DNA of 64,000 bases. Source: Pirellula sp. Its GTDB lineage: Bacteria; Planctomycetota; Planctomycetia; Pirellulales; PNKZ01. Of the stretch, positions 1 through 14,373 are shown piece by piece. The notes under the pieces were generated by a model that saw only the letters and a program-made list of their open reading frames with translations, did not search any database and was not told the DNA's origin. The position numbers and the translations under genes are program-made. The stretch is taken from assembly GCA_013822735.1 (NCBI GenBank), contig PNKZ01000001.1:310001-374000 (forward strand), in the 5' to 3' direction. Position 1 is the stretch's first letter. Every line of letters starts with the position of its first letter.

Positions 1-3000
1 GCCGCCGGCGACTTGTATCACCGGCGTATTTGTGAAGGCGATCGACGGCACGTCGAGGCTGTTATTGCCGGCGGTGTTAATAAGTCCGCCGGAAGTGAGC
101 GTCAGTCGAGTCCCGACCCCGCCGCCGACGCTTAAGCCGGTGCCGTTGATCTTGACGGCGTTAACCGTACGAGATTCCGTTAGGCTGCTGCTCGCGGTCA
201 GGTTCAGCGTGTCGGAAGCGGCGGCCGTGTTTAGGTCGTTGCCGATGTTGTAGTCGCCGGGAATTAGTGCGACGACGCCGTTGGTCGGGTCGTACTTGGC
301 GAAGTCGGTGCCGCCAAGATAGATTCGCGGAATGATGCCGTTGATGACGATTGAGGCGCTGCTAGGAGCGGTCGTGAATCGCACGAAGTTGTCGGTTCCG
401 AGGTTGGAGATCCCTCCAAGGTTTAGCGAGGAACCGGAGTTGGCAAAGTTCACCGACGCGAAGGTTAGGTCGACGTCGCCACCAGACATGGTGATGTAAG
501 TCTGTACGCTGTTCAGCGTGAGACCGCCAGTGACTTCCGTCGTGCCGCCGCCGGCACCGATGATGTTTAGGGTGCCCCCTTGACCGGTTAATGCGCCTGC
601 ATCTGCGAGGCGATTTACGCTCCCGCCGCCGTTGTCGAGGGTGAGTGTGCCGATTGGATTGAGAGTCACCGTGCCTGCCCACGCACCGCTACCGCTTAGT
701 TCGATGGTGTTGCGGTTCACGGTCAAGGCACCTGTTGCGGAGTTCGCATTGGTGAGGCTCAGAGTGCTTAAGCCCGAATACGCGAGGCCGCCGGCTCCGC
801 TCCCGCCGTTGGCGACGACTCCGCTAATAGTTACCGGAGCCGATCCTCGCACCGTGAGCGTCCGTCCGGTGTTGCTTTCGCTGAGGTTAACCGTTCCGGA
901 AATGGTCAGTAATGCGCCACCGGTGAGTTCATTGCGGAGAAACCGGTTGCCGCCGCTGTTTACCAGCGCCGTGGTTGCGCCGAATTCAATGCTGTTGGTG
1001 CCGATGATTGTCGCCTGGTCGCCGGCAAGCGTAACTTGCGTGGTGATCTTATCCGCACCGGTAAGCGCGAGCCCGGCTTGGAGCGATCCGCCGTCGAAGA
1101 TAAATTGCGAGCTTGCGCCGAACTGAGCTTGACCGGAATTCTTATTAAGAATCAGCGTGCCCTGGCCGAGCAATGTGGACCCGGTGTACGTGTTGGCCAA
1201 GCCGGACATGGTGAACGTGGCGCCGTCGGCAATTCGAATGTCCCACGCGATCTTGCCGCCGGCCGCGGCGTTTTCCCCGATGGAGCCGTTCCACACCGTG
1301 GAACCGAAGCCGCGGATGCTGATGGTTTGCGTCGCCGCAGTCGTGCCATTCTCCAGATTGACGAAGTCCCCATTGATCGTCAGCAGGGCTCCGCTTTCCA
1401 TGCTGTTGCTCAGGGTCCATTGGTTATTTCCGGCGGTCTTCGAGACATTCGCATTGATGGTGATCGCGTTGGAACCGGCAAAGACGCCGGTCGAATTATT
1501 TCCGATGACCTGCGTGCTGGTAACGAGAGGGCCGCCAAAGGCGAAGATACCGCCGTTGTTTAGGGCGATGGCATTGGCCGACCCGATGCCGTTGGCGGTC
1601 AAGCCGAGGAGGCCGCCGTTGGCGTTAATATTGCCGGTGAACGTATTGGCCGAGGCGGGGTTCAAAACCCAGACGCCGCCGTCATTCTTCGCGATATGGA
1701 GCACGTTGGCGAACGTCGCGTTGGTGCTGTTGGTGAGCACCAGGTTCATCTGATTGAAGTCGGTATTGGCGCCGCGCAAATCCAGGGTTAACGCGCGGAT
1801 CACGGAATCGCCGCGAGTGGTGTGGACGAATGTGCCGGTGTTCCATACCAAGGCGCCCGATCCGGAAGCATCGATACGAAATACTCGATTCGCTGAGAAA
1901 TTGGCGCTCGCCTGGAACGTGAGGTCGCGATTCGAAATCTCGCCGCCGCCGACGTATAGCAAGCCGTTGAGGTCGGAGTTTCCGGGATTGTAGATAACCG
2001 CCCCGCTCGCACCGAGAGAACTGCTCGGGCCGGTACCGATTGACGTGACGACGAGATTGCCTGCATCGACGCGGGTACTTCCGGTGTAGGTGTTCGCATT
2101 TCCGAGAATGAGCACGCCGCCGCCGCTCTTAATGAGAGCGTTGCCTCCGGTTCCTGCGCCGCTGATGACTCCGGAGAGAATGCCGGCGGTGACCATGGCG
2201 CCGGTGTTTCCGTTGTTGTTAACGGTGATGGTGCGCACTGCGGCGCCGATGTCCATGTCGTTCGTGATTTCCGTTTCGCCGAGAGCCGTGGAAGATCCAA
2301 GGACAAGTGCAGTAGGATTGAAGTTTGTGCTTCCCCAAGTCACTGCGCCGCCGCCGAGTGTGACGACGAGGCGGTCCGGAGTTGCGGCGGAAAAGCCGGA
2401 AGTGCCGCCGGGAAGTTGCACGGTACCCGTGCCTGCGACCGGCGCGGCGAGAGTGCGCGTAAACGAACCGGAAGTTTCCAGCACGCCGCCGTTGATGACC
2501 AACGGACTGTTTGCCGAGAGCCCTTGGACGGTAGCCGTAGCCGCGGCGACTCGGAGCGCACCGCCGGAGATCGTCGTCGTTCCGGTGTAATCATTGGACG
2601 TGAGCGGGTTGAGGATCCAAAGTCCGGCGTCCGCTTTGGTGAAGGAGAGTGCTCCGCCGACGCCGTTGTCCGTCAGACGAATTCGCATTTCGTTGTCGCC
2701 GAGGGAATCTCCTCGCAGCGTAAACGCCCGTGTGCCGGTTCCGCTAAACACGATGTCGGCCGTGTTGCTAAAAATGACGGAGGCGTTGTTCGCGGTGCGC
2801 TGCAAAACGCCGCTACCGTAACTGCCGGACGAGTAGATGGTCGCCGCCCCGGCCAAGGTGAACAATCGGTCGGTGCTTACGGAAGGCGTCTGGGTGCTTT
2901 GGAAAATGTTCACGTTGAACGGCGCGGTGCCGCTGGAAACGTTTGCTCCGGTGTAGATGAGCGTGCCGCCGTTGAACACCAAGCTCGCCGCGTTCGCGGC

Positions 3001-6000
3001 GTCGCTCGTGTCGTCTCCTTTGCCGAGGGCGCTGTCCTCTCCGATGTTCGCTAGGGAAGTCACCAGCAAGCTTCCACCGTTGAGGTTCAGCGGACCGCTA
3101 AAAGTGTTGGCTCCGGTGAATGCGAGCGTGCCCGCGCCGGCTTTCGTCACGGCCAACTTTGCCGTCGCGCCATCCTGAAGCGTGCCGGTGAATGTGTTTT
3201 GGCTGCCGCCATTATTGCCGAGGACGATCGTTGCGGTGCCGGAGGCTGCGCTGTTCGTTACGGTGCCTGCGCCGCTGAACGAATTGATCGCCGCAGGGCT
3301 CAGAAGACTGACGCCGTTCAAGTCAAGCGTCGCACCCTGACGAATCACAAGGTTGACGTTGTTAGCGCCGAGAGTTCCCGCGCCCGACAGACGAAGGGTT
3401 CCTTCGTTGATCGTAGTGACGCCGGTAAAAGTGTTCGCGGCGCTGAGGATGAGCGTGCCTTCGCCGCTCTTGGTCAGGCCTGCGGTGCTCGTGGTGATCG
3501 GTCGGGCAATTTCCAACGTGTTCGCACTGCCGTCGACTCGAACTGCTAGGTCGTTACCGGCAGAGGAAACAGCCACGTTGCCCGAGGCGCCGTCGATTTT
3601 GCCGCTTCCACCGGTCTGGAGGATGCCGCTGCCGCTCGCAACACCGATCGTAAGGTTTCCGGTCAGAGTTAACGTCTGACCGCCCGCGATCCTGAGAGAA
3701 TTGACGGCGACCGCACCGCTTGTGAAGCTTCCCGTGATTTCGTTATGAAGGGCTCCGGTCAGGGAGGTCGCCGAGGTCATAAAGCCCGTGTCCCCTCCGC
3801 CACCGCCAAGCCCGTCGGTATAGACAGGAGCGCGTAGAGTCGTGCCCGCACCGGAATAGGCGAAGTCGGCGCCGTTGAAGTACGTGCCCGAGTTAAGGAA
3901 GCCCGCGGTGCCGGTGATGTTGACCGTTCCGCCGGATACCACGTTGATCGTGGCCCCGGTCGTCCTGGCGGCGAGCGAACCGAATGTTAAAGTCGCCGAT
4001 CCGCCGACGCCCGAGGGCGTCGCGGCGATCGTTCCCTGACCCGCCGTGGCCGTAAGTGCTCCGACAAGTTCCTCGCTCGCGGCGGCCGACGCTCCGACAT
4101 AGTTGAAGATGCCGCCGGCAGCCTGCGAGAAATTGTCTACGTTAAATAGGATCGCGGCGGCATTCGGCAGTACGTCGCGCGAACTCCCGGAAAACGTATC
4201 TTGGATCTTCAGCGTGCCGCCGGAGACGGTCGTCGTGCCGGTGAAGAGATTCGCACCGGAGAGCTGCCACGTGCCGACGCCGATCTTCTGGAGATTGAGC
4301 AGTGTACCGCCCTGGGGGATCGCCGACTGAATCTCGTTGAGGGCGGTATTCGTGCCGCCGAGAACGAGCGTCTTAGAGGATCCCGCAACGGCGGTCATGA
4401 CGCCGTCGATCGTCAGTGCCCCTGTGCCGCTGGCGTTGATATACGCGTTCACGGTGGTGGAGTTCAGATTAATCGGCTTGCTCAATGTATCGGTGCCGCC
4501 CGTATAGGTCAGCGTGCCCGACGTGGTCGTGGCGTTGCCGATATTGATCTGGGAGGTTGCGCCGAAGCCGCCGACATTACTGAAAGATAGCGTTCCGGCG
4601 CTGATGTTCGTTGCGCCTTGATAAGTCCCGGCGGTGCCGCCATAGAAGAAAGTACCCGTGCCGGATTTGGTGAGCACGTTGGCGACTGCCGAGGTCACGA
4701 CGCTTCCAGTGATTACGGTTTCGGCGTTGCCGGCGATGGCGAAGGTGCTTGCCGTGGCATTGTTGGCATTCCACACGTTGCCGTTCAGCGTAACCGTGCC
4801 GCTGGAGTTGTTCGTAACCGTGATGCCGCGGTAGTCAGCGGCGGCCGGGGCGGTGTTAAAGGAGATGTTGTAGCCGTTGCGGCCGTTGAAGGTGAAGTTG
4901 CCCGCATTTGCCCCCGCATCACGAATGAGAGTTCCCATCGTCACGGTCTGATTCTGAAGCGACGTACCGATGCCGAGCCCGCCCGTCAGATCGTGATCGA
5001 AAAAGAAAGTGCCTGTCGTGTTATTTCGAATGCGCGCGTTGCGCCCCGCGAAGCCGGATGCCGCATCCGTCCGGATTTCGAGAGTGCCGTTGTTTAAATC
5101 GATCTGACCGGTTCCGACGTTTAGTCCCAACGCTCCGTTTGCCTGAACGCGCGCCGTGCCGCTATCGACGCGGAGCGCATCGGTGAACGAATTGCCGGCG
5201 TTTTGGAGCCAGAGAGTCGTGCTGACAAGTTGGCCCAGCTTGATGAAGCGATCGCCCGCGTTTTCGGAACCGGTCACGACGCCGCTGATGATCCAGTTGC
5301 CGTTCCCCTGAAAAGACGCACTGTTCGTAGTTCCCACGGCGAGATCGACGCCGCCGGTAATCGTCGTAGTACCGTGCGTGGCCCACACGCGACTGTCGGA
5401 AATCGTCGCACCGAGCGTCAGCCCTCCGGCAAGCGTGTTGTAACCGATGCTGACGAGGCCGCCGGTATTGTTCACCACGCCGGGACCGCGGCCGGAAACC
5501 GACACCTGACGCGCGATGGTGATGCCCGTGCCCGATGCGGAAGCGGCTCCCCCCTGAAGCACCAAGGCACCGCCGGAGAATCCGGGATTCCCCGTCTGCG
5601 CAACGCCGGTAATGGAGATTGCGGTGGTACCTAATCCCAGTTGGCCGGCGTTGGTAATGACGAGTTGTCCCGACTTGACGGCAATGTCGCCGGTAAAGGA
5701 ATTCGAATTGTTCGTGAGCGTGAGCGAGCCGTCGCCGGTTTTCGTGAACCCGGAAGTTCCGGCTAAGAGCGACGCAATCGTGGCGCCTGTCCCGATTCCG
5801 TTGACCGAGATCACCGGGGATGCGACGCCAACGTCCGGCGCAAGCGTAAGCGTGCCTCCGGCGAGAGAATATCCGCTGGAATTAAAGATCAAACGGCCTG
5901 CAGATATTGGCGCTCCGAGCGTGACGGTGCCTGACGTACCCGTAAACACGGCGGTATCCGTCCCGTTGATCCAAGCCGCGTCGACAGCGACGCCGTCCCA

Positions 6001-6303
6001 CCAGTTCGGCGTCGAAAGATCCCACGTGAAAGGCCCCACTAAGTTGCCAAGTCCCGCGCCGGTGTCGGCGTTGTTGCCCGCCGCGGTTTGGTCCGCATCC
6101 CAATAAAAAGTATCTGCCGATGCCGGTGTGCCGGAAATGATGATCGCCGCAATGACAATCCACGTAGCGACGACGCGAAGCGATGAGACACTTGGTCGAT
6201 AGCGCCGTCGCCACGAAGAGCTACGACACTCGCGCGCCGCTGCTACTAAGCTTTGATAAATTTCTTTCCGCCGATGGCCATAAAGCAATTTCGCAGAATG
6301 CAT
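1..6303 (-). CDS. Giant autotransporter-associated beta-strand repeat protein (3' end outside window)
   Basis: Exported beta-helical surface protein; the reading frame is open from 6303 to base 1, so about 2,100 codons are visible and the C terminus (autotransporter barrel, PEP-CTERM or dockerin type) is not. The chosen ATG at 6301-6303 gives about 48 basic residues, then a hydrophobic segment (VVATWIVIAAIIISGTPASA) ending in an Ala-x-Ala cleavage site, then the mature start ADTFYWDAD. The rest is Gly/Thr/Asn/Ser-rich with at least ten copies of the beta-strand repeat (TIGR02601-like), of form KSGxGTLxLxxANTFTGxT followed by GGTLRL; examples lie near 5700-5760, 4230-4300, 3421-3480, 2085-2140 and 1630-1700. 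Such proteins are common and very large in planctomycetes; adhesion or envelope roles are usual guesses. No clear ribosome binding site precedes the ATG, so the start is less certain than the frame. Confidence 0.85.
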   Translation of the reverse strand, partial: MHSAKLLYGHRRKEIYQSLVAAARECRSSSWRRRYRPSVSSLRVVATWIVIAAIIISGTPASADTFYWDADQTAAGNNADTGAGLGNLVGPFTWDLSTPNWWDGVAVDAAWINGTDTAVFTGTSGTVTLGAPISAGRLIFNSSGYSLAGGTLTLAPDVGVASPVISVNGIGTGATIASLLAGTSGFTKTGDGSLTLTNNSNSFTGDIAVKSGQLVITNAGQLGLGTTAISITGVAQTGNPGFSGGALVLQGGAASASGTGITIARQVSVSGRGPGVVNNTGGLVSIGYNTLAGGLTLGATISDSRVWATHGTTTITGGVDLAVGTTNSASFQGNGNWIISGVVTGSENAGDRFIKLGQLVSTTLWLQNAGNSFTDALRVDSGTARVQANGALGLNVGTGQIDLNNGTLEIRTDAASGFAGRNARIRNNTTGTFFFDHDLTGGLGIGTSLQNQTVTMGTLIRDAGANAGNFTFNGRNGYNISFNTAPAAADYRGITVTNNSSGTVTLNGNVWNANNATASTFAIAGNAETVITGSVVTSAVANVLTKSGTGTFFYGGTAGTYQGATNISAGTLSFSNVGGFGATSQINIGNATTTSGTLTYTGGTDTLSKPINLNSTTVNAYINASGTGALTIDGVMTAVAGSSKTLVLGGTNTALNEIQSAIPQGGTLLNLQKIGVGTWQLSGANLFTGTTTVSGGTLKIQDTFSGSSRDVLPNAAAILFNVDNFSQAAGGIFNYVGASAAASEELVGALTATAGQGTIAATPSGVGGSATLTFGSLAARTTGATINVVSGGTVNITGTAGFLNSGTYFNGADFAYSGAGTTLRAPVYTDGLGGGGGDTGFMTSATSLTGALHNEITGSFTSGAVAVNSLRIAGGQTLTLTGNLTIGVASGSGILQTGGSGKIDGASGNVAVSSAGNDLAVRVDGSANTLEIARPITTSTAGLTKSGEGTLILSAANTFTGVTTINEGTLRLSGAGTLGANNVNLVIRQGATLDLNGVSLLSPAAINSFSGAGTVTNSAASGTATIVLGNNGGSQNTFTGTLQDGATAKLAVTKAGAGTLAFTGANTFSGPLNLNGGSLLVTSLANIGEDSALGKGDDTSDAANAASLVFNGGTLIYTGANVSSGTAPFNVNIFQSTQTPSVSTDRLFTLAGAATIYSSGSYGSGVLQRTANNASVIFSNTADIVFSGTGTRAFTLRGDSLGDNEMRIRLTDNGVGGALSFTKADAGLWILNPLTSNDYTGTTTISGGALRVAAATATVQGLSANSPLVINGGVLETSGSFTRTLAAPVAGTGTVQLPGGTSGFSAATPDRLVVTLGGGAVTWGSTNFNPTALVLGSSTALGETEITNDMDIGAAVRTITVNNNGNTGAMVTAGILSGVISGAGTGGNALIKSGGGVLILGNANTYTGSTRVDAGNLVVTSIGTGPSSSLGASGAVIYNPGNSDLNGLLYVGGGEISNRDLTFQASANFSANRVFRIDASGSGALVWNTGTFVHTTRGDSVIRALTLDLRGANTDFNQMNLVLTNSTNATFANVLHIAKNDGGVWVLNPASANTFTGNINANGGLLGLTANGIGSANAIALNNGGIFAFGGPLVTSTQVIGNNSTGVFAGSNAITINANVSKTAGNNQWTLSNSMESGALLTINGDFVNLENGTTAATQTISIRGFGSTVWNGSIGENAAAGGKIAWDIRIADGATFTMSGLANTYTGSTLLGQGTLILNKNSGQAQFGASSQFIFDGGSLQAGLALTGADKITTQVTLAGDQATIIGTNSIEFGATTALVNSGGNRFLRNELTGGALLTISGTVNLSESNTGRTLTVRGSAPVTISGVVANGGSGAGGLAYSGLSTLSLTNANSATGALTVNRNTIELSGSGAWAGTVTLNPIGTLTLDNGGGSVNRLADAGALTGQGGTLNIIGAGGGTTEVTGGLTLNSVQTYITMSGGDVDLTFASVNFANSGSSLNLGGISNLGTDNFVRFTTAPSSASIVINGIIPRIYLGGTDFAKYDPTNGVVALIPGDYNIGNDLNTAAASDTLNLTASSSLTESRTVNAVKINGTGLSVGGGVGTRLTLTSGGLINTAGNNSLDVPSIAFTNTPVIQVAGG

Positions 6304-7243
6304 TCGCAAGGATCGAAACGCCGTCGATAGGGAACCGCCCGGCAAAAGACGTCTTGTGCGTGCATGGACGGGACGCACGTGATTATTCTCTCGCCGTAAT
6401 GTCTGTTGGTTCGAGTCACTAATCGCATAGGGTGGCAATTGGGGCGATGCTTTCATGGAAGACTTTCCGGGCAACAGGGCGTCATGCGACTAATCGACGG
6501 ACAAAAGGTCGGGCACTAGCTGGAACGGCACAGCGCGATTGCGATCGAGCGAAGCGTCTTCTCCCGTCGCTGAGATTGGACGAATTTATGCAACGTTGCG
6601 TCGACGCGATCCCGCCAAAGCGTCACTTGCTCGCGGCAAAATGGCGGTCGCAGCCCGACTATAGATTCGCGAGAAGTCGTATCAACGGATTTATGTGCGC
6701 ATTAAAAAAGTAAAAAACGGCGCTGATATTTGTGCGCTATCTGCTTCGAGAGTTGGCCTCAATCTGCTGCGACAAATCGCCGTCGGCCATTCGGAAGTCA
6801 GATAGCAGTAACGAGACGCACAACGCGCCGACTGTCTCGGCAGTGCTGCAGCATCGTGTCGCATTCGCACATTGCGCGGAACTTTTAGCACCTATCGCGA
6901 GGGGTTCGTTCTGCTTTGAAACAGATTCGCGGTGGAGTTCTTGCACTGTCGGCCGCGATTCGCTTTGTGCTTGGAAGACAAACGTCAGCGACATTCAGTC
7001 GCCTACGGCGGCAAGATGGCGTCAACTTGTCGCATCGAGCGTTCGGTGTAGGCGCGAATTGCGGTAGTCTGGCGGCACTGACCGTCGGTAGCACGGATAT
7101 TTTCGCTATTAGCTGGGGCTGAACGCGACCGGCACGAGGCTTGCTTGTACGGTTCGACAAGCGAGAGGCGCAAATTCTTCTCGCAATCTTTTCTTGTCAC
7201 GGCATCACACGCTTCGTACCCGCCCAACCACGAACAGTAATTC
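6304..7243. other. Long intergenic stretch, no supported gene
   Basis: About 940 bases between the divergent beta-repeat gene and the first HhH protein. Open frames here are all under 115 codons, overlap each other on both strands and show no recognisable domain or start signal. It contains A-rich tracts around 6705-6718. The stretch probably holds promoters for both flanking genes and possibly degraded accessory DNA; nothing more can be supported. Confidence 0.5.
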
Positions 7244-8329
7244 ATGATTCGACACACTCGAAACGCGTCCTCGTCGGAGTGGGTTGCAGTCGGGATCGAA
7301 TGGACTTGCCTGACTGAGCAATTGCGAGGGATGGACGACTCGTTGCGAAGCCGAGTGCTTTCCGACTTTGTGCGCCCCGGTGATCATTTCCTTCCGCTTG
7401 GCGTCTTGTCGCTATCCGTCGATTCCTTGTCGCAAATGACGATTGATGATTTGCGACGACTCCCCGGTGTGGGGCTCGTTAAAATCCGAAACTTGTTGGG
7501 ATTGTCGCGGCGCGTTATCGAATCAAAAGCCAAGTGCGAGTTTGCGAGACCATCAACACATGAGACAGGAACGGAAACACTCGCAAGCTCACTATCGGCC
7601 GCACATGAAATCTCGGAACTCGAATGGTCGCAGTGGCGGGAGGAGCTTCGCGAGTTGCCGACCGTGCGGGAACCGATAGGCCGGTATGTTTCGCGGCTCG
7701 ACGAACTTCCTTCGGGAAGTTGGTTTATGCCGCTAGCGGAGTTTTGCAAGCTCTCTCTTCGAGAGCTGCGCGAGCTTCCCGGCTATGGACCACGGCGCGT
7801 TGGCGCAATCATTGTTACGATTCGGACCCTATTGGATTTACGGTCCGCGGTCGCTCATCTTCCTGCGGTGGTTGCGACTTGGGAGAGTCGAGAGATTGCT
7901 CGGGCCGATGCATGGTTTGTCGCCGCATTGAATGCGCCTTCCCAGGCTACTTACGGCGACTTGCAAAGCGAGGTGTTGGAGCCGCTAACGCGCCAGATAC
8001 GTCATGATCTGGGAGCAGCTCACGTCGACCTCGCTCTCATTGGCAAACTGTCGCCGTCGCGTGTTCGTCAAATTCGTCACGATTTAGCGAAGGCAATTCT
8101 CGTGCGCTGGCCGCGCGGCGAACAACTGGCGCAGGCTTTCTTAGGCGGTGTAAATTCGACGTGGACCAATGACGACATGGAGGCGGCCGCACAAGAACTA
8201 GGGAGGTTCTTCATGAACCTGAGGCGCGCGCCGCGATTCGTTGATATTGCTTCGCATCCGGCGCGTTTTCAGCCGGCAAGACCGTATTGGGGAACCGGCA
8301 CTGCGGATTCGTACGACTCAATGATCTGA
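7244..8329 (+). CDS. Double helix-hairpin-helix protein with sigma-4-like C-terminal segment (tandem copy 1)
   Basis: 361-residue soluble protein with no signal peptide. Two segments resemble the HhH of the RNA polymerase alpha C-terminal domain: residues 66-92 (IDDLRRLPGVGLVKIRNLL) and 171-200 (LRELRELPGYGPRRVGAII). Residues about 262-290 (LSPSRVRQIRHDLAKAIL, then the motif RWPRGE) look like a sigma-70 region 4 helix-turn-helix. It is a paralog of the next gene: the order of the three modules, the HF/DF-x-RPxD motif before the first HhH, the xSWFxP/xLWFVP motif before the second and the RWPRGE motif are shared. The 63-base spacing suggests co-transcription. A DNA- or RNA polymerase-binding role is inferred from the folds; the true function is unknown. 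ATG at 7244 is the first start; a later Met30 would keep all modules. Confidence 0.8.
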   Translation: MIRHTRNASSSEWVAVGIEWTCLTEQLRGMDDSLRSRVLSDFVRPGDHFLPLGVLSLSVDSLSQMTIDDLRRLPGVGLVKIRNLLGLSRRVIESKAKCEFARPSTHETGTETLASSLSAAHEISELEWSQWREELRELPTVREPIGRYVSRLDELPSGSWFMPLAEFCKLSLRELRELPGYGPRRVGAIIVTIRTLLDLRSAVAHLPAVVATWESREIARADAWFVAALNAPSQATYGDLQSEVLEPLTRQIRHDLGAAHVDLALIGKLSPSRVRQIRHDLAKAILVRWPRGEQLAQAFLGGVNSTWTNDDMEAAAQELGRFFMNLRRAPRFVDIASHPARFQPARPYWGTGTADSYDSMI

Positions 8330-8392
8330 CATTTGCTTGTCTCGGCAATATTCAACGTTTAGGCAGTCCTCTCAGCTCAACGTGAACTGACC

Positions 8393-9610
8393 ATGGCCAC
8401 AACTATTCCATCTTCGGCCCACGCCCATTACGACTCCTTTAAACGAGCCCGCGTCGCGATTAGTACGTTGCCCCCCGAGATTCGCAATCGTCCACTTTCT
8501 CATTTCCTTCGTCCAAGCGATCGTTGTGTACCGAAGAGTCTCTTGTCGCTCTCTCTCGATGAGATCGCCGGTTTTGCACTTGAGGACATCTTGCGTCTGC
8601 CGAACGTTGGTCCCAAGAAAATTGGGAACCTCGCGATGATCCTCACGAGGACGATCGCAGAACCTTGCACGACCGTGACCGAAGTCGCTAGGGAAGCCGT
8701 CGAGGCGGCGCGACCACTTTGGAGCATGGCGTCGTCAGTCGCTTCGCCGCTCCCTGCCGTGTCGCGGGTTTCCGAAGTCTACGCGCAAGTCGATGAACTA
8801 CTTTGGGAACATTGGTGCTTCCGAATCCGCCGTTGGGGCCTTGCCGAGGAGACGCTCGGGCATTGCGTCGCACGCTTGCGTGATTTGCCGCGTAGCCTAT
8901 GGTTCGTCCCCGTTCACAATTTTCTGTACCTCTCTTACGACGAATTGCTTCGAATACGCGGCTTCGGTGTTAAGCGAGTCGCCGTAATCGTCGAATTGTT
9001 CCGATCGCTTGACGCAGTGATCAGTGCCCAGGAAAACGCTTTAGCCGAATCGGCCGGAATCGCTCACTCTATGAAGGCTACGCCGGTAGTTGCACCTCCG
9101 TTCATCGCGACCGTTGATGCAGCGGTTGAAGATGTGGTCGTAGGTAGGTATGCCTGGTGCACGAGCTGGTTCGCTAACACAGTTGTGCGCGGGCTATGGC
9201 AACAGCTACAGATCGACGGGGATGAAACCACGCGCGCGTTGGTCGCTGAACGACTTGGCTGGCACCCCGGCGCGCTAGCTTCACACACACAATTGCGCGT
9301 GCAAGGACTATCACGCGCGCATCGCTTCGGAATCCTCTTTAACGTCTCAACTATGGTCCAAGCACGCTGGCCGCGCGGCGAATCGCTGTTGAACCGACTT
9401 TTACAGCAGTTGACTTATCGAAACCAAGTCGGCATACCTGCCGGAGACGACTTCGTGGCGCTCGCGATCGGGCTTTTCTTTCCGGCCCTGAAAGATTCGC
9501 TAGCGGAATGGCGCCGCCGCAGCAACGACGGACTCCGGCAAGAAGGCTTGCCGCTCACAAATCGATTAACCGGGTTTTCGTTCGCCACTCCCGTTTCGAC
9601 CGGCAATTGA
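8393..9610 (+). CDS. Double helix-hairpin-helix protein with sigma-4-like C-terminal segment (tandem copy 2)
   Basis: 405-residue paralog of the preceding protein, diverged but colinear. HhH-like segments at residues 61-86 (LEDILRLPNVGPKKIGNLA) and 181-205 (YDELLRIRGFGVKRVAVIV); the second is close to the alpha-CTD pattern of the type LLKIRNFGKKS. A C-terminal helical segment around residues 285-335 (VAERLGWHPGALASHTQL ... ending in ARWPRGESLLNRLL) parallels the sigma-4-like part of copy 1. No enzymatic motif and no membrane segment were seen. The tandem pair probably arose by duplication and may work as a heteromer; that is inference. Stop TGA at 9608-9610; the next real feature is a pseudogene, so the pair seems to stand alone. 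Confidence 0.8.
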   Translation: MATTIPSSAHAHYDSFKRARVAISTLPPEIRNRPLSHFLRPSDRCVPKSLLSLSLDEIAGFALEDILRLPNVGPKKIGNLAMILTRTIAEPCTTVTEVAREAVEAARPLWSMASSVASPLPAVSRVSEVYAQVDELLWEHWCFRIRRWGLAEETLGHCVARLRDLPRSLWFVPVHNFLYLSYDELLRIRGFGVKRVAVIVELFRSLDAVISAQENALAESAGIAHSMKATPVVAPPFIATVDAAVEDVVVGRYAWCTSWFANTVVRGLWQQLQIDGDETTRALVAERLGWHPGALASHTQLRVQGLSRAHRFGILFNVSTMVQARWPRGESLLNRLLQQLTYRNQVGIPAGDDFVALAIGLFFPALKDSLAEWRRRSNDGLRQEGLPLTNRLTGFSFATPVSTGN

Positions 9611-10201: not shown

Positions 10202-11285
10202 ATGCAGTTCGTCGATCCGGTGACCCGGAGAAGACCCGTTCTACCGGCGTCCTGAAGACGGGGCTGAAGAAGGATCGCGTGGAAGCGGAGCGTGTCGCCG
10301 CTAAGTGGGAGGCGGGGGGCGTTATAGCGACCCGAGCGCCATATCGTGGGAGCAGTTTCGCGATAGGTACGAGCGTGAGGTGCTGTCAGGTCTTGCGAAA
10401 GCGACGCTCGAAAAAGTCGACGGTGTGTTCGCCCTCATCGAGAAGATCCTCGCGCCGATACGCCACCGCGATCTGACTGCGGAACGATTAAGCTTCTTTA
10501 CGGCTTTACGGCGGAACTTCGTAAAGAAAGGACGGAGGGTCGGAAGTCGATTCCCGGTAGCGCTGAAAGTACGATTGCCGGAAATCTATCGCATCTTCGA
10601 TCCGCGCTGGTCAAGACTCCCACGGTAGTCGGCGAAGCCGCAGCGCCCGCTTGGCAAAACTATCTTCGCGGGTTGTGGTACTCCGGCCTGCGGTTGGCAG
10701 AATCCTTGGAGTTGTACTGGGATCGTGATGACCGCCTTTGTGTCGTGGATATCGAAGACGCTCATCCGATGCTACGAATTCCGTCTGAACTCGAAAAGGG
10801 CAACAAGGACCGCTTGCTGCCGATAGCCCGGAGTTCGCCGAGTTCTTGCGTCAGACGCCTAAGCAAGCGCGTCACGGGCACGTTTTCAAGCTGGTAACGA
10901 AGTACCGTCAGCGTCGGCCGACCGAATGGACCGTCTCCGAGATCGTTGCGAAGATCGGCAAGACGGCCCACGTGAAAGTGAACATGGACACGCGTACGGG
11001 GAAGGTGAAGTTCGCGAGCGCCCACGACTTTCGTCGGCCATTCGGTGAGCGTTGGGCGGCGAAGGTGATGCCTCGGATGTGATGATGCTCATGCGGCACA
11101 AAAGCATCGAGACCACGATGAAATATTACGTGGGCCGCAACGCAAAGACCGCCGCCCAAGTTCTCTGGGAAGCTCACGAGCGGTCACGGACCGCCGGTGA
11201 CACTTCAGTAACAGTGCACCTAAAGAAGCATGCGACTCTGGCGATCACAACACCGCAAGCCCTTGTGAAGAAGGGCTTTAGAAAG

Positions 11286-12334: not shown

Positions 12335-12718
12335 ATGACCTTCATCGTTTCACGTCTGCGAGCCGACGCGGCTATGCCTGTCTCCGTTTCTTTCGATCAT
12401 GAGGGCACTCTTCGCCGACTCGGCGGTGATACGGGGCTCTACAAGGATTTGGTCGGATTCTTCTTAGAAGACTCGGCCGATTTGTACCAGCAGTTGCAAA
12501 AGGCGACGCTCGGCGAAGACGTGGCGGAGACCGAGCGCGCGTCGCACTCCCTGCGAGGCATTTGCGCTAATTTTGGCGCCGGAGAAGCTATCAACTTGTG
12601 CTGGACAATCGAACGACGCGCCGGCGTCGGCGATTGGCATGAAGTGCGAACGGCGCAATCGCAACTTGATGGTGCGCTCAGTCGCTTGCGTACGGCTTTG
12701 CAAAAGTCCGTCGTTTAG
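12335..12718 (+). CDS. Histidine phosphotransfer (Hpt) domain protein
   Basis: 127-residue soluble protein built almost entirely of an Hpt four-helix bundle, the intermediate of multistep phosphorelays. The phosphoacceptor is His71 in ERASHSLRGICANFGA, matching the HxLKG pattern with Arg for Lys. No kinase or receiver domain is fused. Met14 (12374) is an alternative start giving a more typical length. It is convergent with the sigma-54 response regulator; no hybrid kinase is encoded nearby, so its partners are unknown. It could relay phosphate to the neighbouring receiver, but that is only suggested by proximity. Confidence 0.88.
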   Translation: MTFIVSRLRADAAMPVSVSFDHEGTLRRLGGDTGLYKDLVGFFLEDSADLYQQLQKATLGEDVAETERASHSLRGICANFGAGEAINLCWTIERRAGVGDWHEVRTAQSQLDGALSRLRTALQKSVV

Positions 12719-12918: not shown

Positions 12919-14373
12919 CTAGGCCGTGGCGGGCTCCTCATCGAGCGTTACCGTCGTACCCAGCGAAATATGCAGGGCGCGGATCTTATTGCGGAGAGTG
13001 CCGCGCGTAATGCCGAGAATCTTCGCGGCTTGCGATTGATTGCCGTCGGTGTGTTTGAGTACGCGTGTGATGACAAATCGTTCCATCATCTCCAGCGTTT
13101 CCAAGTATAAGTCCTGCGAATTGCCGCTGCGGAGGCGCATTTCGAGGAACGTTTCCAGATCGCTTTGCGGAGCGACTTCCGGATCGAACGTGACCTTCTC
13201 GCCCGGATCGAATCGCACGGAATCCGGCAGGAATTCCGGCAGAATCACGGCTCCCGTCGTCTGCAGCAGCGACTGCCGAATGACCGCTTCCAACTCGCGG
13301 ATATTGCCGGGCCAGGAGTAATGCACGAGCAAGTCGAGCGCTTCGGGCGAGATGCTGTGGACGTCTTTCCCGAGTTCGCGGCTAAACTTCTGCACGCAAT
13401 GTTGGAGGAGCAGCAAGATGTCGTCGCCGCGGTCGCGGAGCGGCGGCAGCTTGATCGAAAAGCCGTTGAGGCGGTAGTACAAGTCTTCGCGATACTTGCC
13501 GTCGGTCGCCATCTGCTTCAGGTCGCGATTCGTCGCGGCGATGATGCGCACGTCCGTTTGAATAGTCTCCGTTCCGCCGACGCGCTCGAAGCGTTGCTCC
13601 TGCAATAAACGGAGCACCTTGCTTTGCACAAGCGGCGACATATCGCCGACCTCGTCTAAGAAGATCGTGCCGCCGTGGCATTGTTCGAACTTGCCGATGC
13701 GTCGGCTGTCGGCGCCCGTGAAAGAACCGCGCTCGTGACCGAACAATTCGCTTTCGAGCAAGTTGTCGGGAATCGCCGCGCAGTTTACGGCCAAGAACTG
13801 CTTGTTGGCGCGATTGCTGTGATGGTAAATGGCGCGGGCGATGAGTTCCTTGCCGGTGCCGCTTTCACTTTGAATAAGCACCGTCACGTTTTGCGGAGCC
13901 ACGCGACCAATCGCCTTGAATACTTCTTGCATCGGCGGACAGCGTCCGACGATTTGATCGGCCTCGAGTTTCGGATGCGCCTCGCGCGGCAACTCAACCG
14001 GCGTGCTCATCAGCCGACGAATTTCCAGCGCCCGATCAACCAGGTCGCGTAGCTTTTGCAAATCGAGCGGCTTCAAGAGGTAGTCGTAGGCGCCGAGCTT
14101 CATCGCCTCGATCGCCGTGTCGCTCGTACCGCCGGCGGTGATGAAGATCACCGGCAGCTTAGGATCCCAGCCGTGGAACTTGCGCACGGCTTCCAGTCCC
14201 GAGATCTCCGGCAGCATGATGTCGAGTAGTACGACGTCGGCGCCGGCCTTGAGAATGTCCATTCCTTCGGGCACGTCGCGCGCCGTCTTCACGGTGATCG
14301 GCGTGTTGGCAAAGGCCTGAGTAATCAGGTGCAGCGTGGCGCGGTCGTCGTCAATGGCAAGGAGCGTCGGCAT
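12919..14373 (-). CDS. Sigma-54-dependent response regulator (NtrC family)
   Basis: 484 residues in the classic three-domain order. Receiver at 1-120 with acidic pair DD8-9, phosphoacceptor Asp51 (LLDIMLPE), Thr79 and Lys101. Sigma-54 AAA+ domain at about 145-385 with Walker A SESGTGKE, the sigma-54 contact loop GSFTGA (usual GAFTGA), Walker B GGTIFLDEVGDM and arginine-finger region. Fis-type helix-turn-helix at 430-475 (NQSQAAKILGITRGTLRNKI). It activates sigma-54 promoters when phosphorylated; target genes cannot be told. The first Gly of Walker A is Ser and the loop has Ser for Ala; both occur as variants but merit a check. The ATG at 14371-14373 fits the family length. No cognate kinase gene is adjacent. 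Confidence 0.95.
   Translation of the reverse strand: MPTLLAIDDDRATLHLITQAFANTPITVKTARDVPEGMDILKAGADVVLLDIMLPEISGLEAVRKFHGWDPKLPVIFITAGGTSDTAIEAMKLGAYDYLLKPLDLQKLRDLVDRALEIRRLMSTPVELPREAHPKLEADQIVGRCPPMQEVFKAIGRVAPQNVTVLIQSESGTGKELIARAIYHHSNRANKQFLAVNCAAIPDNLLESELFGHERGSFTGADSRRIGKFEQCHGGTIFLDEVGDMSPLVQSKVLRLLQEQRFERVGGTETIQTDVRIIAATNRDLKQMATDGKYREDLYYRLNGFSIKLPPLRDRGDDILLLLQHCVQKFSRELGKDVHSISPEALDLLVHYSWPGNIRELEAVIRQSLLQTTGAVILPEFLPDSVRFDPGEKVTFDPEVAPQSDLETFLEMRLRSGNSQDLYLETLEMMERFVITRVLKHTDGNQSQAAKILGITRGTLRNKIRALHISLGTTVTLDEEPATA

Follow-up and report, generated by a model that had tools for sequence, protein, structure and literature searches.

What are the two adjacent open reading frames of a Pirellula sp. 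that join short helix-hairpin-helix (HhH) units to a helix-turn-helix (HTH) resembling region 4 of sigma factors, and would such proteins work with RNA polymerase or apart from it? The pair lies within the stretch of 64,000 nucleotides analysed here (hereafter the window), copy 1 as an ORF of 361 aa at 7244-8329 (+) and copy 2 as an ORF of 405 aa at 8393-9610 (+), on the same strand and separated by 63 bases. The reading that we consider somewhat better than an even bet is that the family comprises stand-alone DNA-binding regulators, specific to the order Pirellulales, and that the window pair acts on the gene for a giant protein that is transcribed away from it. Here we infer the DNA binding, the capping of a polymerase-contact site and the regulation of the giant gene, its sign included, from alignments, structural models and gene neighbourhoods.

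Tandem helix-hairpin-helix modules

The two copies are 36% identical across their HhH region, which makes them paralogs, and an alignment of 35 family members places three modules in identical order in both. Alignments of 35 and 60 members, together with AF2 models of copy 1 (pLDDT 86.2) and of the canonical copy of the same genome (pLDDT 86.8), where canonical denotes the widespread, slowly evolving form of the family, indicate a plan of a long N-terminal helix, HhH module 1, a variable linker, HhH module 2, a helical spacer, the HTH domain, a short last helix and a disordered tail. Copy 1 follows this plan with a degenerate sigma4-like HTH and a cap helix, and copy 2 is laid out in the same way. 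The original prediction, made from the letters of the window, had both proteins end in an RWPRGE motif after three shared modules. The shared order stands; the motif, whose R-W pair is invariant in both alignments, is not terminal, as some 70-80 residues lie beyond it, a conserved helix among them.

In copy 1, module 1 covers residues ~37-95 (7352-7528, +; hairpin LPGVGLVKI), with modelled helices at 59-63, 67-71 and 78-100, and matches HHH_5 at E 4e-5, under the Pfam cut-off (score 24.4 vs 27); module 2 covers residues ~122-205 (7607-7858, +; hairpin LPGYGPRRV) and is assigned by family-level homology to module 1. The corresponding modules of copy 2 are residues ~30-90 (8480-8662, +; hairpin LPNVGPKKI), placed by the family alignment, and ~132-214 (8786-9034, +; hairpin IRGFGVKRV), placed by the alignment and by an HHH_5 match that is again under the cut-off (best stretch 183-223, E 8.8e-5). 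With Pfam, NCBIfam and PHROGs, neither window protein reaches the cut-off of any family, HHH_5 being the best and just under; the earlier remark that no described family has such a plan is thereby borne out in these three libraries. The hxGxGxxK hairpin expected between two helices is present in the canonical form as TPG[IV]GQKK (conservation 0.86), flanked in its model by helices 67-71 and 78-92. Modules 1 and 2 are homologous to one another over 49 columns (hhalign score 37.7, prob 94), so that an internal duplication likely gave rise to them.

The original prediction had also taken both units to be like the C-terminal domain of the RNA polymerase alpha subunit (alpha-CTD), and here the comparisons lead elsewhere. 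With hhalign, module 1 scores 33.5 against the HhH of LigA and 28.6 against planctomycete RpoA-CTD over ~33 aligned columns (maximum of the RpoA-CTD shuffles, 14.8), and module 2 matches neither convincingly, one of its own shuffle controls being erratic. Searched against PDB sequences, the profile of module 1 retrieves ComEA, RuvA, ERCC1, RpoA, PolX, NusA and DisA at E 0.007 to 2, with ComEA and RuvA best and PolX, NusA and DisA lower. Only three of the 35 members match the alpha-CTD family PF03118 in Pfam, all below its cut-off (best E 0.051), and the member at C3:432129 of the window genome scores 13.7 bits vs a cut-off of 23.8. Inspection of the alignment revealed in the HhH modules no counterpart of the residues by which alpha-CTD contacts UP elements, which we take to be R265, N268 and C269. 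The family does share with alpha-CTD the hairpin, a preceding GDL.. helix and matching spacing over those ~33 columns; it differs in scoring below its LigA HhH match, in the contact residues and in having no alpha N-terminal domain. Descent of the modules from alpha-CTD is thus not supported, and at the level of sequence they are best described as generic HhH, sharing the GxGxxK hairpin with HHH_5 (PF14520), LigA, ComEA, RuvA and ERCC1 and differing from these proteins in being tandem copies followed by a sigma4-like domain, as well as in window-copy Pfam scores that stay below the cut-off.

A planctomycete protein with true alpha-CTDs does exist besides RpoA. Most of 40 planctomycete genomes encode a protein of ~430-480 aa that combines TPR-like repeats with two alpha-CTDs exceeding the Pfam cut-off (L132/L133 in our numbering; G000:C29:40072-40515 in the window genome), possibly a second class of promoter-binding protein. 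It has in common with the present family two modules of alpha-CTD/HhH type in tandem, and differs in its N-terminal TPR-like part, the lack of a sigma4 domain and its wide occurrence in the phylum. We considered it as a source of the family and set it aside, the full-profile match being weak (prob 3.7).

The sigma-region-4-like domain and the C-terminal helix

The claim that two HhH modules are joined to a domain like sigma region 4 is supported, the latter part clearly so only in the canonical relatives. When the canonical model is searched with VIA-align, the matches listed are region 4 of sigma factors (Z 8.6-6.6), the fiftieth being a chain of an RNA polymerase holoenzyme; Foldseek returns isolated sigma4 chains at prob 0.93-1.00, among them 1ku3 at an rmsd of 1.1 A over 49 columns. 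When PDB sequences are searched with the domain profile (hmmsearch), six sigma-factor chains come first, each individually weak (E 0.045-0.13) and all agreeing over most of the domain, including an R.P motif after the recognition helix. With hhalign the domain scores 39.2 (prob 94.5) against planctomycete sigma4 and 24.1 against GerE, with 40 shuffles at or below 19.0. The C-terminal module of the canonical relative is, on its predicted model, sigma-region-4-like, whether by derivation from sigma region 4 or by convergence on it. A Foldseek search of viral models gave weak sigma-like matches only.

The window copies are harder to place. Their sigma4-derived regions lie at residues ~237-302 of copy 1 (7952-8149, +; with SRVRQI and RWPRGE), assigned by alignment to the canonical domain and ~24 residues shorter than the canonical form, and at residues ~262-345 of copy 2 (9176-9427, +; LSRAHRFGIL and RWPRGE), assigned by a profile match to that domain (prob 99.7). 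Taken alone, the clades of the two copies score 18 and 21 against sigma4 (the family, 39) and 90 and 132 when compared with the canonical domain; sigma4 is not among the matches listed by VIA-align for the copy-1 model, which, like those from Foldseek, are unrelated helical proteins covering mainly residues 214-339. Judged by its sequence, the module in the window copies has diverged beyond direct recognition, so that the sigma-4-like segment originally proposed for them is clear in their canonical relatives, by profile and by fold, and weak in the copies themselves.

The family has the fold and helix order of sigma-70 region 4 (PF04545; domain 4 of SigA, RpoD and RpoS), a HTH with TR.R..Q and the R.P motif after it; it differs in lacking sigma regions 1-3, in carrying HhH modules and in having a helix of its own in the place of the flap tip. 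Among the 25 Pfam families listed for the 35 members, none is sigma region 2, and the remainder of each protein consists of the HhH modules and the spacer. The recognition helix is a nearly invariant TRAR[VI]YQ. In what we take to be the sigma70 numbering, R584 and Q589 are kept and the equivalents of E585 and R588 are replaced by A and Y; a -35-like specificity therefore cannot be assumed. Among canonical members, the mean modal frequency is 0.86 in hairpin 1, 0.89 in hairpin 2 and 0.84 in the recognition helix, against 0.25-0.72 in the other segments. Constraint is thus strongest at the three candidate DNA-contact surfaces of the protein, which points to probable DNA binding, as had originally been suggested; the two HhH modules would grip the DNA backbone and the sigma4-like HTH would read its sequence.

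The second half of that suggestion, binding to RNA polymerase, appears less likely through the sigma4 face. Among the top VIA-align matches of the canonical model are chimeras of sigma4 with the beta flap tip (8cyf, 8d5v, 7kug, 7kuf and 6ido), which align over 87/89, 91/94, 94/96, 83/85 and 85/86 residues and reach model residue 347-351; plain sigma4 chains align to residues 236-324 and stop at their own C-terminus. The extra segment of the chimeras hence falls on helix 334-346 of the canonical protein, which has a conserved ..ELFFP end and with which the cap helix of copy 1 aligns (..ELGRFF.., residues ~309-322, 8168-8209, +; a helix at 309-322 in the AF2 model). In this single model, made for one canonical protein, the conserved helix at the C-terminus seems to sit at the site of the beta flap tip, covering the groove in which sigma4 would hold the flap tip of the polymerase; with the groove covered, the domain would work outside any sigma factor. 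Such a cap might let the domain stand alone, or might keep it closed to polymerase. Known regulation through sigma4 takes another form: in sigma appropriation by T4 AsiA/MotA (PMC6755090) and in the WhiB-sigma4 activators (PMC10245118), partner proteins are reported to bind the sigma4 of the holoenzyme. The likeness to these systems is regulation by way of sigma4; the difference is a sigma4-like domain built into the protein together with its own cap.

Distribution of the family and origin of the pair

Of 58 genomes of the order (the window genome and its relatives), 43 carry a member, nearly always in single copy. In a phylum-wide draw of 294 genomes, five of them from the same order, four matched, all in that order, and none of the 289 other planctomycete genomes did. 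A scan of 84,980 species, which detects close relatives only, returned 79 loci, nearly all labelled Planctomycetota, Pirellulales, Blastopirellula, Botrimarina, Aeoliella or Thermogutta, labels that lead us to name the order Pirellulales; a scan of viral contigs returned no relative. One member (L078, JABMRB010000707.1) sits in a record labelled Candidatus Nealsonbacteria, which is probably a planctomycete bin carrying a wrong label or contamination. Across the 79 loci the canonical gene has no consistent partner apart from loose synteny; 18 of them have an exonuclease-like gene downstream in the same orientation.

The window genome (G000) holds five members, namely the pair, a copy-1-like gene on contig C13 (54% identity), a copy-2-like gene on contig C3 (56% identity) and a more distant gene at C3:270106. 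In the tree, the pair, its two relatives and a pair from a second species (G003) form one clade on long branches (support 100/100), and by sequence the window pair is part of a fast-evolving clade. Copy 1 groups with the first gene of the G003 pair (100/97), so that the split between copy 1 and copy 2 most likely predates the divergence of the two species. Most genomes have one slowly evolving copy; a duplication in the genus of the window genome would have produced the fast-evolving, divergent pair. Adjacency, which the original prediction had proposed to survey, proves not to be general: most genomes have one unpaired copy, and the further copy-1-like and copy-2-like genes of the window genome are solitary on other contigs.

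The giant neighbour and the readings of the pair

The original prediction had placed the pair beside an integrase remnant, probably the 107-aa ORF at 10305-10628 (+), which has no Pfam match up to E 10. The telling neighbour is on the other side, where the N-terminal part of a 7,325-aa ORF (G000:C1:294497-316474) fills positions 1-6474 (-) of the window, divergent from copy 1; the gene was missed from the window alone because it runs off the edge, and the plus-strand ORFs listed over 1-6474 are its shadows. Its PATR repeats exceed the cut-off, part of the ORF matches TIGR02601 (beta-strand repeats), and its C-terminus is PEP-CTERM-like (GLAGLGFAGYRRRK), preceded in its neighbours by a VPEPGSLL motif. 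About 17 long PATR-bearing ORFs are found in this genome, the largest of 12,608 aa on C11.

At each of its three known loci the copy-1 branch has a giant gene as its divergent neighbour. On C13 this neighbour is a giant ORF no shorter than 4,560 aa, with a further giant downstream; in G003 the pair diverges from a giant of 4,774 aa or more that is collinear with the window giant. Pair and giant have been kept together in this second species, their proteins being roughly 30-60% identical. Since descent and duplication link the three loci, they represent one conserved association rather than three independent events. Around ~90 canonical-gene loci no giant was detected with a rough profile built from the repeats of these giants, and the copy-2 relative at G000:C3:431166 is remote from any giant gene. 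Copy-2-like genes elsewhere have a sulfatase gene directly downstream (G003:C315:67731-69227, +; G000:C3:429682-430998, -), a neighbour not found in the window.

Between copy 1 and the giant gene, at 6656-6722 (-), we find what looks like the promoter of the giant gene: read toward it, T6ACT6 (6704-6717), 18 nt, TTGATA (6680-6685), 16 nt and TATAGT (6658-6663). The divergent regions of the window, C13 and G003 share, in this direction, a T-rich tract, 17-18 nt, TTGA or TTGT, and TATAGT or an AT-rich equivalent, at nearly equal distances from the start of copy 1 (positions 522, 526 and 505). Window and C13 have an exact 17-mer in common (E 1.4e-4), and the G003 element aligns at a score of 77 vs a maximum of 62 in 100 shuffles; no exact k-mer of 9 or longer is common to all three regions, the element having been found by aligning the T tracts. 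In the window genome the exact T6ACT6 14-mer occurs only at the window and C13 sites. The only site with a single mismatch precedes a third giant gene, in reversed orientation, and one site with two mismatches precedes a fourth; these near matches (G000:C13:116180-116193 and G000:C11:19261-19274), one of them reversed, have no obvious -35/-10. Taken as a whole, the T-tract pattern shows no enrichment in this genome (12 matches vs 19 in the control). As three or four of the 17 giants have the element or something near it, we rejected it as a regulon signal for all giants; most of the ~17 have neither the element nor a neighbouring family member, and the element may be a plain promoter read by ordinary holoenzyme. 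On the favoured reading the pair, whose copy-1 branch stands back to back with the giant gene, would most likely control the transcription of that gene, by activation or repression, from the shared intergenic region. That the giant gene is the target is, taken by itself, a tentative proposal to which we assign less than even chances.

Other accounts of the proteins deserve weight. They could be factors associated with RNA polymerase, the sigma4-like domain binding the beta flap tip and the HhH modules acting at promoters in the manner of alpha-CTDs; the sigma4 fold of the canonical model would fit, as would the score of module 1 against RpoA-CTD, far above its shuffles. We hold this to be unlikely, given that the model puts a conserved helix of the protein itself in the flap-tip site, that alpha-CTD is not the best HhH match and that its DNA-contact residues have no counterpart. 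A similarly small chance goes to a structure-specific or nucleoid protein of repair, recombination or chromosome organisation, which would bind through its hairpins without sequence specificity. ComEA and RuvA as top PDB sequence matches of module 1, the one copy that most genomes in the order have and the exonuclease-like neighbour would suit it, but the nearly invariant recognition helix suggests base reading, no catalytic domain was found and the neighbours are inconsistent across loci.

The window pair could also consist of decaying, functionless duplicates that lie beside the giant gene by accident, as their long branches and the ~24 residues lost from the HTH region of copy 1 might suggest. 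Intact frames of 361 and 405 codons, the retention of invariant family residues, the joint conservation of pair and giant in a second species and the conserved intergenic element all speak against decay, which we regard as very improbable. We thus return to stand-alone regulators acting on the giant gene. A more ambitious version, which we think rather doubtful, would have a sigma region 4 freed from polymerase through its own imitation of the flap-tip helix and joined to tandem HhH modules, forming an order-wide regulator of which a duplicated, fast-evolving branch is dedicated to the gene of a giant surface protein.

HhH and sigma4 folds are known; neither the libraries nor the open-access literature searched showed their combination, the apparent built-in helix resembling the flap tip or the distribution across the order, the literature yielding nothing relevant on this domain plan, on giant PEP-CTERM planctomycete proteins or on Pirellulales signature proteins. 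If the favoured reading is true, a family of transcription factors has made the promoter-reading domain of sigma self-contained by supplying the polymerase contact itself, which would bear on how sigma4 domains escape from the holoenzyme. The giant repeat proteins with which planctomycete genomes are filled would likewise gain a candidate regulator, and the order Pirellulales a marker gene. On the 3' side of the pair, sequence inspection shows an Hpt-like protein at 12335-12718 (+) and a sigma54-type response regulator at 12919-14373 (-), convergent with one another.
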